Assembly: GCF_000760095.1 (NCBI RefSeq)
Contig: NZ_JNAR01000016.1
Coordinates: 186,001 to 250,000, forward strand
Direction: 5' to 3'
DNA: 64,000 bases
Source: Prochlorococcus marinus str. MIT 9401
GTDB lineage: Bacteria; Cyanobacteriota; Cyanobacteriia; PCC-6307; Cyanobiaceae
Positions within the stretch are counted from its first letter, which is position 1. Each line of letters opens with the position of its first letter. The notes below the pieces were generated by a model. That model did no database searches, had not been told where the DNA came from, and saw only the letters and a list, made by a program, of their open reading frames with translations. This document shows, piece after piece, positions 2,756-50,789 of this stretch. A program made the translations under genes and the position numbers.

Positions 2756-3268
2756 ATGGGATTGAATATTCCTAATTTATTATCGATATCTCGCCTTTTC
2801 CTTGTATTTCCATTAATACTTTTTTTAGAAATTAACAGACCTTTTTATGTCTTTGTATTGATTATTATTGGAGGTTTAACTGATTATTTTGACGGGTTAA
2901 TTGCAAGGAAATTTAATCTTAAAACCAGATTAGGTGCAATCCTTGATCCCTTAAGCGATAAAGTATTCTATTTAATTCCTTTGACCTTCCTTTGTAAAAA
3001 TAATTTTATACCCTTCTGGTCTTTGTCATTAATTTTATTTAGAGAATTAATCATCTCTAGCCTAAGGAACTCGACAAGAGACGGTTTACCAGCATCAATG
3101 TTAGGAAAATATAAAACATTTTTCTTTTTTATTTCAGTAATTACCTTCTTTACACCATTAAAAATTGGCTTATTAAATAATTTGGCTTTGATTTTTTATT
3201 GGTTAGGATTCTTACTGACTTTTATGACTTTATTAGGCTATTTAAGAATTAAAAAGAATATTGTCTGA
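2756..3268 (+). CDS. pgsA: CDP-diacylglycerol-glycerol-3-phosphate 3-phosphatidyltransferase
   Basis: Makes phosphatidylglycerolphosphate, the precursor of phosphatidylglycerol, an essential thylakoid lipid. The CDP-alcohol phosphotransferase signature is complete: D43, D46-G47, A50-R51, G60, D64 and D68 with exact family spacing (counted from ATG 2756). Several hydrophobic helices follow. I chose ATG 2756 (170 aa), which begins MGLNIPNLLSISR as in other PgsA proteins. An upstream TTG at 2729 would add nine residues. Its 3' end overlaps the convergent CSP41-like gene by 27 bp. Confidence 0.9.
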   Translation: MGLNIPNLLSISRLFLVFPLILFLEINRPFYVFVLIIIGGLTDYFDGLIARKFNLKTRLGAILDPLSDKVFYLIPLTFLCKNNFIPFWSLSLILFRELIISSLRNSTRDGLPASMLGKYKTFFFFISVITFFTPLKIGLLNNLALIFYWLGFLLTFMTLLGYLRIKKNIV

Positions 3269-4162
3269 ATTTTCATCAAACTCCTCACTATTTTTATTAT
3301 TAAAATCATTCTCAAAACTATCCTTTAGACCATTAAGCAAATCAAAAGATGGCGCCCACTCTAAATCACGTTTTATCTTAGAGATATCAGTCTGATAATG
3401 ATTTAATCTAATTGGAAATCCCTTTCGAGACTTAGGATCTAATTTTTGATAATCAAATGTTCTTAAAGAAATTTCATTTTGGTTTAATCCAAGAACATTC
3501 GCACAGAAATAAATTAAACCCTTGATTGTTACTCCTTTTTCACCTGAACAATTATAAATATTATTTTTGGAATTTTCAAAATTTATGCACCTAATCATTA
3601 CATCAGTTAGATCCGAAACATGGCCTAGCTGAGTAATTAAAGAACCGTCACCAGGGATTGGTATAGATTTTTTAGTAAATAACCTTTCAAAAAACCAATT
3701 TTCAATTTTATTATAATTTCCTGGTCCATAAATATAAGTAGGTCTAAAACTTGTAAAAGGAATTTTTTGGTTTTTTAACCAACTTTCTGTCTCAAACTTT
3801 CCTTTATGCCTACTTTCTGGATCAATTGGATCAACTTCGGATAAGGGTAGTTCACAATTATCTTTATAAACACCTGCAGAGCTTACATATATATATCTCT
3901 GGAAAGAGTGATCTAAATTTTCTATAAGAAGTTTGGTTTGTTCTAACTCTCGTCCAGAAATATCAAAAACAACATCATACTTTTCATTTCTTAACTTGAT
4001 GATATCTTCTGAATTATTTCTATCCCCCTTAATTAAATTTGTTTTTTCAGGATTACTTTTATTACCTCTCGTGAAAATATCAATATCATAATTTTGACTT
4101 AATAACTTTCCAACCAAAGACTTGCCAACAAATCTAGTGCCACCCATTACAAGAATTTTCAT
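3242..4162 (-). CDS. CSP41b-like NAD-dependent epimerase/dehydratase family protein
   Basis: Extended-SDR protein of about 306 residues. MKILVMGGTRFVGK is an N-terminal glycine motif of the variant seen in the chloroplast RNA-binding protein CSP41b and cyanobacterial relatives. YVSSAGVY and RPTYIYGPGNY sit where the catalytic region and substrate loop of epimerases lie. CSP41 proteins bind RNA and affect rRNA and mRNA stability in plastids, so the cyanobacterial protein may act on RNA rather than sugars; that is inference. ATG 4162 is preferred over TTG 4168. The C terminus (residues about 285-306) is acidic and asparagine-rich and overlaps the end of pgsA by 27 bp. Confidence 0.8.
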   Translation of the reverse strand: MKILVMGGTRFVGKSLVGKLLSQNYDIDIFTRGNKSNPEKTNLIKGDRNNSEDIIKLRNEKYDVVFDISGRELEQTKLLIENLDHSFQRYIYVSSAGVYKDNCELPLSEVDPIDPESRHKGKFETESWLKNQKIPFTSFRPTYIYGPGNYNKIENWFFERLFTKKSIPIPGDGSLITQLGHVSDLTDVMIRCINFENSKNNIYNCSGEKGVTIKGLIYFCANVLGLNQNEISLRTFDYQKLDPKSRKGFPIRLNHYQTDISKIKRDLEWAPSFDLLNGLKDSFENDFNNKNSEEFDENSDNILFNS

Positions 4163-4254
4163 ATTCAAAAAATATTTAACTGAAGTAGTAATCTTAAATA
4201 GAATTACATATTGAATAGTACTACTAATAAGTAATTAATGAAAAGGATGATTCT

Positions 4255-47258: not shown

Positions 47259-48371
47259 TCAACGTATCTTATTCAAAGTTATTTCTTTTTGCCTCCAATA
47301 TGTCTCTTTTTTAATCAAACCCTGAAATTGATTTTTTAGCTCATTTATTTTCTGCCTTTGAATAGAAAGATTTAAGTTTTTAAACTCTAACTCAACAGTA
47401 GATATATTGAAGAAAATAATGCTTGGAAAATTATTGCCGGTTAATGATGTACGATTTAATTCTAATTCGAAATTAATAACAAAAGGATATGGATGTTTTA
47501 TCATAAAATTTTTGCCTACTAAGTAATCAAAGGAATCTTTGGATATCATCTTTTTTATTAGATTTGCTTTGAATAATTGTTGGTTAATACTATATGAAAG
47601 ATTTAATAGTAAATTTTCCAATGACTTGTCTATTAAATCAAAATTATTAAGAATCTGATTTTTTGGTAAATTATCTAATTGATTGATATTTTCTTTTTCT
47701 TGATATATTTGTTTTTCCACCTTTTCTTCTCCTGTTAATTCAATTAAGGAAGAAATAAATTGTTTTTCAACTCCTAAATTTTCAAAAATAATGTTTTTAG
47801 ATAAATAATTATTATGGTGGTTATTATCTAAGTCAAGTGATATGAATTTCCCATCATTATCAGTTTGATAATATTCAGAAGCATTTGAAATGTCTTTACT
47901 AATCTTGAACTGAATGGGTTCTTCTAGTTGAAAATCATCTTCATGTTGAATTTTTTCTTTTTGATTATCCTTTGTTTTTGTAAAACTATCTAAGCTATGA
48001 AAATTAATTTGTTTTTTTATATTTTTTTTAATTTCATTTATTTTTAATTGTTCTACTGTTAATAAGGGCAAATTCGAATAAATAAGCCTTCTTATTTTTT
48101 TTTCAAAAAGACTATAGAATTCATTTTCATATAAGAAATTATCATTAATTTTTGGATAACTATATATATGGTTAAGCCCCTTTTCTGCAGAGATATAAAG
48201 TACATCTCTTACATGATTAAGATAAAGTTCATATTCCCTATAGATATTTCTAATTAATATTCTTTTTTGTATCTCTGCTCTCTTTAATTGAGAATTAATT
48301 TTATCTATATCTAAGTAACTATTAAAATTATTCAAATCATTCAAGTGACTAGTTTGATTGCATTGATGCAA
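47259..48371 (-). CDS. Hypothetical protein, 370 aa, between tsf and recG
   Basis: Asparagine- and lysine-rich soluble protein with no signal or membrane segment. Residues 20-110 are helical and charged (coiled-coil tendency); 115-240 look low in complexity; 245-370 form a more ordered part with a strand-rich [19 protein letters not shown] and [13 protein letters not shown], then a helix ending [25 protein letters not shown]. The start appears to be TTG 48371, overlapping the end of tsf by 23 bp, with no ATG nearby. Family not recognised; synteny suggests a picocyanobacterial gene. Confidence 0.6.
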
Positions 48372-49005
48372 CCTCTTCAGCGAAGTCCATCTGATTTTTT
48401 TCTATACCTTCACCTAGTGTATATCTTGTAAAGCGTCTTACTTTGATATTTTCCCCAATTTTTGCAGCTGCTTGTTTAACGAGATCCTCAACTGTAAGAG
48501 AACTATCTTTAATATAAGGTTGTGAAAGTAAAACCAGCTCATTAAGTCTTTTCGTTATTCTCCCTTCAACTATTTTTTCTTTAATCTGTTCTGGTTTTCC
48601 AGATAAATCATCTCGCCCCATTTCAATCTGCTTTTCTTTTTCCACTACATCTTCTGGTATTTGATCAATTGAGACATATTCAACATTTGGGCAGGCTGCT
48701 ACTTGCATTGAGACATCCTTCAAAAGAGATTGGAAAATATCACCTCTAGCGACAAAATCAGTTTCACAATTTAACTCAAGTAAAACGCCCACTCTTGATC
48801 CAGTATGTATGTAACTACCAATTGAGCCTTCAGCCGCAACTCTTCCTGATTTCTTTTCAGCACTAGCTATGCCTTTCTTTCTTAACCATTCCAAAGCTTT
48901 ATCAACATTTCCATCAGTTTCTTTAAGTGCTTTTTTGCAATCCATCATTCCTGCGCCAGTCTTGTCTCTAAGATCTTTAACAAGTTTTGCTGTAATGTTT
49001 CCCAT
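48349..49005 (-). CDS. tsf: Elongation factor Ts
   Basis: Nucleotide exchange factor for EF-Tu, 218 residues, the short cyanobacterial/plastid size class. The N-terminal UBA module [19 protein letters not shown] and the core [13 protein letters not shown] (EF-Tu-contacting TDFV) are complete. It follows rpsB with a 39-bp spacer in the usual rpsB-tsf order. Confidence 0.97.
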
Positions 49006-49044: not shown

Positions 49045-49749
49045 TTAATTTTTTCTTTCAGCATTAGAACCCTTTCTGCCCTCATTAATAGCATCTGCAA
49101 GCCTTCCTAAAATAAGTTGAACAGATCTAACGGCATCATCGTTACATGGAATGGGAACCTCACACAAATCCGGATCGCAGTTTGTATCCAACATTGATAC
49201 CAATGAGATATCTAATTTTCTGGCTTCTAGTACTGCATTAGATTCTCTTCTCTGATCAACTAAAACAACTACATCAGGTAATCTTCTCATACCCTTAAGT
49301 CCGCCTAAATATTTTTGTAATCTTTCAAGTTCTCTCCTTAAAACTGCAGCTTCTTTTTTAGGCCTCATTGCTATTGAACCACTACTTTCCATTCTTTCTA
49401 GATCTTTTAATCTTTCAATCCTAGCTTTCATTGTTGTCCAATTAGTCAACATCCCTCCAAGCCATCTTTGATTTACATATGCAGCTCCACATCGAGTAGC
49501 TTCCTGAGCTACTACATCTGATGCTTGTTTTTTTGTACCGACGAATAAGAAACGTTTACCACTTTTTGCTGCGTTTCTTGTCCATTTATACGCATTGTTC
49601 ATACACAATGCTGTTTTCACAAGATCAATAATATGAACTCCGTTTCTTGCGCAATAAATATACTTAGACATCTTGGGATTCCAACGTCTAGTTTGATGCC
49701 CAAAATGAGCACCAGCTTCCATCATTTCCGATAGTGATACAACAGCCAT
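49045..49749 (-). CDS. rpsB: 30S ribosomal protein S2
   Basis: 234 residues beginning [25 protein letters not shown], the family signature, with FVGTKKQA and [12 protein letters not shown] and the C-terminal [18 protein letters not shown]. Structural part of the small subunit. The leader between this gene and the upstream glycosyltransferase gene contains two interleaved inverted repeats ending 10 bases before the ATG, a likely site of autoregulation. Confidence 0.97.
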
Positions 49750-49759
49750 AATTTAAAAG

Positions 49760-49823
49760 GGTTTCGGGTTAGCCTCCATCTGACGGGGAATTTATATTAC
49801 TAAATCACCCGAAACTGTCAGAT
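49760..49823 (-). promoter_or_regulatory. rpsB leader with interleaved inverted repeats (pseudoknot candidate)
   Basis: In mRNA order: CATCTGAC (49823-49816), one base, GTTTCGGGT (49814-49806), 22 bases, GTCAGATG (49783-49776), seven bases, ACCCGAAAC (49768-49760). The first pairs perfectly with the third (8 bp) and the second with the fourth (9 bp). The crossing order gives an H-type pseudoknot or two exclusive hairpins. The last arm ends 10 bases before the rpsB ATG, covering the ribosome-binding region, as expected for S2 autoregulation. Confidence 0.75.
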
Positions 49824-49877
49824 GTGTGAATTTGGATTTCATTGATTCTAGCAAGTGATGCGTATTTATAAAAGCTT

Positions 49878-50789
49878 TTACCTTGATTTACTTAATTGTT
49901 TAATGTAAATCATATTTAGAGGGATCCTAAGTATTTCAAGTGCAAGTCTATTTCTTCTTATATTTACTAGTAATTTTAATAAAGGTAGAATTCTATCAAT
50001 ACTGATTAATCCCCCCAAACAAAGAATTTTCCAAAACAAATTATGAAGAGGAGTTAATTGAATCATAAATCTAACCCTTAAATTTGGATGTTTATTATAA
50101 AAAACCAAAGCCATTTTTGCCCTTTCTTTTTCTTGAGCTATTAATGAATCTATTTGTTCGCAATTAAATGGTGGATGCCAATGAAAACCAACTGCATTAG
50201 GACATTTAATTAATTTTGTCCCAATTTTTTTTAATCTTTCTCCAAGTTCTAAATCCTCCCAGCCATAAAGACTAAAAGAGGTATCAAATAAACCTGCCCT
50301 TAAAATCAATTCTTTTGATATCGCAACATTCCCAGTAGCGAAGTAAGCAAAAGAAGTGTCCATTATTTTATGTTTTTCACTCTGGGGATTTAGAAAATTA
50401 GATGTATTGACCACAGAGCCATAGGTAAAACATTTCTTATCATTTTTTTTCCAATAGGAAAGTAATTTATCAACGTGGCAATTTATAAAATTATCTAAAA
50501 CAATAAGATCACTATCAATAAATATAATGATTTCATATTTTGATTTAATTACACCAAGATTTCTTCCCAGCGCAGGTCCTCCATGTTCTTGCTGAAAGAG
50601 AATCACGTGTGGGAGATTAGCTTTATTTTTATTTATCCATGAGCTTGTTCCATCAGTAGATCCATCATCAACTACTAAAACTTCATAATTACTTAAATTT
50701 GGATTTAATTTTTGATTCTCAAGCGCAGCGAGACATTTCTTTAATATAGGTAATCGATTGTAAGTCGGTATAATAATACTTACATTCAT
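49878..50789 (-). CDS. Glycosyltransferase family 2
   Basis: 303 residues. SIIIPTYNRLPILKKCLAALENQ opens the GT-A fold; VVDDGSTDGT and FIDSDLIV give the nucleotide-sugar and metal-binding acidic residues; YGWEDLELGERLKKIG is the ED-type acceptor-site motif. The C-terminal part is a helical tail without clear membrane segments. Likely adds a sugar in surface polysaccharide or LPS synthesis. It is not in a large polysaccharide cluster. Confidence 0.88.
   Translation of the reverse strand: MNVSIIIPTYNRLPILKKCLAALENQKLNPNLSNYEVLVVDDGSTDGTSSWINKNKANLPHVILFQQEHGGPALGRNLGVIKSKYEIIIFIDSDLIVLDNFINCHVDKLLSYWKKNDKKCFTYGSVVNTSNFLNPQSEKHKIMDTSFAYFATGNVAISKELILRAGLFDTSFSLYGWEDLELGERLKKIGTKLIKCPNAVGFHWHPPFNCEQIDSLIAQEKERAKMALVFYNKHPNLRVRFMIQLTPLHNLFWKILCLGGLISIDRILPLLKLLVNIRRNRLALEILRIPLNMIYIKQLSKSR

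Follow-up and report, generated by a model that had tools for sequence, protein, structure and literature searches.

The rpsB motif described by Meyer et al. (2009; PMC2704228) has a closing stem P1 and variable stems P2 and P3; its pseudoknot joins the junction J2-3 to a 3' extension that follows P1. This pseudoknot is described as having five base pairs, or three in Firmicutes, and Cyanobacteria are named among the carriers, with a P2 that is absent or very short. In Escherichia coli, according to a review (PMC10931766), rpsB and tsf form an operon, and surplus S2 acts on the rpsB leader, with the help of S1, to repress its own mRNA; the S2 operator does not include the ribosome-binding site, and the review calls the mechanism unclear. 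On S2 autoregulation through the leader in enterobacteria the review agrees with the preliminary description of the locus analyzed here, where a link to S2 is supported by homology to the E. coli motif. A 2005 screen for picocyanobacterial RNAs (PMC1242208) gives leaders of other ribosomal operons. Among the matches listed in a search of mostly open-access papers, none beyond the class description deals with the leader of rpsB in Prochlorococcus or marine Synechococcus, and no description of a leader anatomy specific to the picocyanobacterial lineage was found in the literature searched. The class is known; what is new here is its covariation in cyanobacteria and a picocyanobacterial form without the usual ribosome-binding sequence.

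The locus lies on the minus strand of a 64-kb window from a Prochlorococcus genome, by which window we mean the whole stretch of DNA that was analyzed (Table 1). The rpsB product has matches in 56 of 60 relatives at 63–100% identity and in 366 of 400 genomes of the family. Four genomes of the same genus that are 93–99% complete (G236, G395, G435, and G448) gave no rpsB match, probably owing to contig breaks. The gene order rpsB-tsf and the class of leader resemble the autogenous S2 system of E. coli, and tsf is probably co-transcribed with rpsB. In the RNA sense, the 5' arm of P1 is followed by one base (49816), the 5' arm of the pseudoknot (PK), a 22-base loop, the 3' arm of P1, the bases GAGGCTA, the 3' arm of the PK, 11 bases, and the ATG at 49749–49747. 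Locating the arms confirmed the reported perfect repeats, 8 bp for P1 and 9 bp for the PK, interleaved in the order a-b-a'-b' with all pairs Watson–Crick on the minus strand, and supports the H-type-like pseudoknot proposed from them. The crossing arms do lie ahead of rpsB as had been described, but they span 49761–49824 rather than 49760–49823, and the gap between the last arm and the start codon, put at 10 bases, was counted as 11. Energies calculated for the separate duplexes are −10.3 kcal/mol for P1 and −13.0 kcal/mol for the PK, with no pseudoknot energy included.

The leader also contains a third stem, P3, and conserved unpaired motifs, which are absent from the preliminary description. 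The P3 hairpin GATTTA/TAAATT appears in the minimum-energy fold of the window leader. The unpaired motifs are CGCACA on the 5' side of P1 and GGAGG on its 3' side, the latter 23 bases before the ATG in the window and also present in the E. coli leader.

Upstream of P1, the hexamer TAGAAT is likely, judged from its sequence, to be the −10 element of a promoter. It is a weak consensus match with TTTATA as the first hexamer (two such sites, versus 1.2 in shuffles), and of 114 distinct leaders (loci L001–L137 and the window), 110 have TAnRAT in the 40 bases upstream of P1. The next ORF upstream, presumably glycosyltransferase-like from a motif in its translation, ends 53 bases before P1, and the rpsB promoter likely sits in this gap.

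Table 1. Features of the rpsB leader and neighboring genes (positions are those of the window; PK, pseudoknot; MFE, minimum-energy fold).
Feature	Position	Strand	Basis or remark
P1 5' arm, CATCTGAC	49817–49824	−	Leader sequence and repeat search; covariation
PK 5' arm, GTTTCGGGT	49807–49815	−	Carried by each of the 67 distinct element types listed for Cyanobiaceae (L164 excluded)
P3 5' arm, GATTTA	49801–49806	−	Hairpin within loop; MFE
P3 3' arm, TAAATT	49789–49794	−	MFE and cyanobacterial covariation
P1 3' arm, GTCAGATG	49777–49784	−	Leader sequence and repeat search; covariation
Final P1 base and loop L3, GGAGGCTA	49770–49777	−	Holds conserved GGAGG
PK 3' arm, ACCCGAAAC	49761–49769	−	Followed by 11 bases to ATG
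Whole rpsB-motif leader RNA element	49761–49830	−	Cyanobacterial model R1, 66 bits
Candidate promoter −10 element, TAGAAT	49845–49850	−	20 bases upstream of P1
rpsB, ribosomal protein S2, 234 aa	49045–49749	−	ORF with ATG start; relatives
tsf, elongation factor Ts	48349–49005	−	ORF, identified from sequence
Glycosyltransferase-like ORF upstream of rpsB leader	49878–50789	−	Translation judged by eye

As in the rpsB motif, the window element stands ahead of rpsB, is closed by P1, has a P3 of the variable kind and no P2 of note, and forms its pseudoknot between the same partners, J2-3 and the extension after P1. Whether the fold belongs to an existing class of leader RNA had been left open; it does, the class being the published rpsB motif, as indicated by this match of layout and by recognition of the E. 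coli rpsB leader with a cyanobacterial covariance model (R1). An Rfam search, also suggested at the outset, yields a weak t44 match when permissive and none at the cut-offs. At gathering scores the whole window is without a match. A permissive search with 4227 families ranks t44 (RF00127) first in the leader, at 27.7 bits (E 3.4e-4 over 201 bases), which does not reach the gathering score of 44, and the window element is thus treated as a homologue of the class and not filed as an Rfam t44 member. RF01815 (gathering score 40) bears the name rpsB and is assumed by us to be the same motif as that of Meyer et al.; it gave no match in the window at the gathering score or at E ≤ 10. At E up to 1, weak matches to t44 or rpsB were found in 5 of 20 leaders from other cyanobacterial families and in 0 of 19 further Cyanobiaceae leaders; the best RF01815 score among the former was 28.7, and the latter gave none. 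A very abundant marine phototroph is in this way assigned to a known class of leaders whose cyanobacterial members escape the Rfam cut-offs, since neither the t44 nor the RF01815 cut-off is reached by any of these 40 cyanobacterial leaders (the window, the 20, and the 19).

Model R1 was built from 52 cyanobacterial rows using P1 and P3 only, with the pseudoknot left out. In 64.6 kb of sequence, of which the E. coli portion is 601 bases, it matches the rpsB leader of E. coli with 23.8 bits (E 3.4e-5). That leader is annotated as tff/T44 (tff at 213–348 of locus L208) and scores 83.5 bits on the t44 model. It shares with the window the cores CACACA, GGGUG, and GUGGAGGC-UAACCC together with P1, all in the same order, whereas it differs in having 12 bases between P1 and the PK as parsed, a PK of 5 bp, and a Shine–Dalgarno (SD) sequence, GAGG, 12 bases after the PK, where the window has no SD. 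In the genome of the window, R1 gives one strong match, whose 66 bits are expected because the window is one of the 52 training rows, and the next match has an E of 7.3. Genome-wide, 74 of 78 genomes of the class are matched at E ≤ 0.01, about half of the 78 having also supplied training rows. Of the resulting 75 matches, 72 lie 7–25 bases upstream of rpsB on the same strand, two are in genomes without a listed rpsB position, and one is a weak second match elsewhere. The sole R1 match known away from rpsB, at G468:C1:1406166-1406207 (minus strand; E 0.005, 21.9 bits, 42 bases), is probably noise. The genomes without a match are G039, G453, G454, and G500; long-loop leaders were parsed for G039 and G453 (L207 and L230).

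Leaders were gathered from the best 80 of 582 contig loci and from further genome searches for rpsB. Removal of five same-genome repeats and of identical leaders left 186 distinct leaders from Cyanobiaceae and 69 from other families, L059 (a contig without leader) and L051 (34 bases of leader) being unusable for structure. Nearly all of the cyanobacterial rpsB leaders sampled are shown here to keep P1, P3, and the crossing PK helix. Of 211 Cyanobiaceae loci, repeats included, a structure-aware parser recovered the architecture in 210, the sole miss (L164) having a wrongly placed start. It returned 68 of the 69 other-family leaders, with P1 misplaced in L206, all elements misplaced in L244, and L260 missed. 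Unlike the five-pair pseudoknot of the published motif, the PK has nine pairs in 207 of the 210 parsed Cyanobiaceae loci and ten in the other 3; in other families it ranges from 5 to 10 bp and has seven or eight in 49 of 68 leaders. The 3' arm of the Cyanobiaceae PK varies only to G-U pairs, and across 185 leaders the PK stops 6 to 15 bases short of the start codon.

Covariation was assessed on leaders aligned with anchors that use sequence only, and was compared with shuffles and slides. These anchors were found in 185 of 186 Cyanobiaceae and 62 of 69 other-family leaders, so that 8 of 255 distinct leaders were dropped (L196, L205, L206, L224, L231, L247, and L266 from other families, and L273 from Cyanobiaceae). 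The PK arms of the seven dropped other-family leaders pair as parsed, in a check that is biased towards pairing, and the element of L273 parses normally under the structure-aware parser. Rows L201, L245, and L267, whose weak P1 reflects a wrong register or anchor, were kept in the counts together with the misanchored L149. In the 185 Cyanobiaceae leaders, 1435 of 1480 P1 cells are paired (97.0%) and 123 are changed on both sides, where shuffles give 35.0 on average and at most 47; in other families, 472 of 496 P1 cells are paired and 93 are doubly changed (shuffled mean 31.8, maximum 49). The Cyanobiaceae PK is paired in 1661 of 1665 cells, all four failures belonging to L149, and compensatory changes occur in 0 of its 9 pairs across 185 leaders. 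Covariation of the PK is silent within Cyanobiaceae because the helix is invariant there apart from G-U changes, and this invariance could also reflect recognition of the sequence. In other families, 482 of 558 PK cells are paired, more than in any of 500 shuffles, and the 16 double changes are within the shuffled range (mean 8.9, maximum 19).

A 52-row MAFFT alignment combined 39 of the 69 other-family leaders (loop of at most 40 bases, trusted parse), 12 hand-picked Cyanobiaceae leaders, and the window, the rows having been located and chosen with the structure-aware parser. Overall, 91.6% of cells are paired and 17 of 22 pairs are changed on both sides; the covariation score is 0.404, against 0.182 for shuffled alignments and 0.138 for the best slid alignment, and was equaled in 0 of 500 shuffles, although such shuffle figures are not probabilities because the rows are related. 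P1 is 98.9% paired, and changes on both sides occur in each of its 8 pairs, of which the eighth has letters in only 15 of the 52 rows. The PK core is 94.2% paired with 4 of 8 pairs changed on both sides, and the ninth PK pair is 46.2% paired. P3 is 85.4% paired with 4 of 5 pairs changed on both sides, in a register slipped by one relative to the best pairing of the window itself. Covariation is thereby supplied for all three stems in a phylum named by the class description, and the conservation among relatives confirms that the leader pseudoknot is real. Breakage of one stem in most relatives had been put forward as a sign against the fold, and compensatory changes as a sign for it. Neither P1 nor the PK is broken; compensatory changes are abundant in P1, but in the PK they are absent inside Cyanobiaceae and present only between families. 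Three leaders of one family (L231, L244, and L260; f26) carry ACCCA in place of ACCCG in the 3' arm of the PK, and in L231 this pairs as UGGGU/ACCCA, which is a compensatory change within the core of the helix.

The two groups of leaders differ in what follows the knot. With SD scored as GGAG, GAGG, or AGGA between 20 and 4 bases ahead of the start codon, an SD is present in 69 of 69 other-family leaders and in 0 of 187 distinct Cyanobiaceae leaders (including L051). Other cyanobacterial families, unlike picocyanobacteria, place the SD directly after the PK: the 4-mer begins 2 to 8 bases beyond the ACCC in the 3' arm of the PK (68 of 69 leaders measurable), and the SD thus overlaps or closely follows the PK helix. 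In Cyanobiaceae the ninth PK pair, G-C, occupies about the place of the other-family SD. In cyanobacteria in general, SD sequences are reported to raise expression (PMC6847405). A loss of the SD specific to rpsB was considered and toned down, because an SD precedes only 4 of 43 window ORFs (ATG-start, hand-picked from 63 to avoid overlaps) and 0 of 142 tsf starts in Cyanobiaceae loci (genome repeats included; 5 from genera other than that of the window; row L228, labeled as coming from other families, belongs to the genome of the window).

The reading that we favor, to which we assign a probability of about 0.8, is that this leader represents the rpsB motif in its cyanobacterial branch and serves as an autogenous control element, with control by S2 presumed from E. 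coli. S2 in excess of uptake into 30S subunits would bind the folded leader, in E. coli together with S1, and stabilize the fold; the stabilized leader would then prevent ribosome loading at the rpsB start, and tsf would be lowered too. In cyanobacteria outside this family, the folded knot may mask the adjacent SD, as the position of the SD suggests. A distance of 6–15 bases before the AUG is within the usual ribosome footprint. In picocyanobacteria the knot would most likely gate an SD-independent, perhaps S1-assisted loading, because the PK lies within this footprint and no SD follows it. A more specific scenario, which we regard as doubtful, is the rewiring of an ancient S2 autoregulator in picocyanobacteria: the SD would be gone with the ninth pair in its stead, the knot would control SD-independent, S1-dependent loading, and S2 and S1 would sense their own supply on an mRNA that itself needs S1. 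Leaders with and without an SD after the knot offer a natural comparison for how S2, bound away from the ribosome site, represses translation.

Among other explanations, the one that survives best, though improbable, is that the knot promotes translation by hiding nine bases and so turning GGAGG into an SD at a workable distance, with S2 or a competing structure opening the knot. By eye, the leader has no strong SD-like sequence other than GGAGG; this motif lies 18–28 bases from the AUG in 211 Cyanobiaceae loci, repeats included, and deducting nine bases brings it to 14 in the window. However, GGAGG or a close variant is kept also beside a separate SD, in 69 of 69 other-family leaders and in E. 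coli, and is for this reason better explained as part of the recognized element; the rarity of SD sequences among the window ORFs likewise argues against the proposal. Somewhat less probable still is that the leader answers another ligand or a small RNA and not S2. The literature searched contained no S2-binding test and no report of S2 binding or regulation in a cyanobacterium, which leaves room for such a ligand, but the genome-wide placement of R1 matches at rpsB (72 of 75) and the core held in common with an E. coli leader under S2 control speak for the favored S2 reading. We give slightly less credence again to a role in transcription attenuation or mRNA stability with no translational part. 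The sequence CCCTTTT directly after the PK 3' arm in the window, and the T runs of 2–7 bases, mostly 5, in 118 Prochlorococcus-type leaders, would suit an attenuator, yet the T run shrinks to 0–2 in 60 of 67 leaders of other Cyanobiaceae genera with the fold unchanged, and a terminator scan covering loops of 3–8 bases found none.

Perfect crossing repeats had been described as uncommon, which is an overstatement at the scale of 64 kb. Two crossing perfect pairs of such size within 70 bases are present in the whole window, and first-order Markov copies of it contain a mean of 0.375, and 59 of 200 copies have one or more; scaled to the 128-base intergenic leader, the expectation is about 0.0008. 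Because a stretch of 64 kb can readily hold crossing repeats this long, the weight of the case is on conservation, and a chance origin, for which this expectation and the existence of the second pair might be cited, is refuted by the covariation counts, the fold being conserved with compensatory changes in many leaders, and has a negligible probability.

The second crossing pair, of 9 and 8 bp at window positions 3456–3520, sits inside a minus-strand ORF (3242–4168), and the number of such pairs matches the chance level for 64 kb. In a leader from another cyanobacterial family, a glutamine riboswitch match (L189:350-406, plus strand; 43.3 bits against a cut-off of 35) shares a 461-base stretch with the rpsB leader, on the opposite strand.
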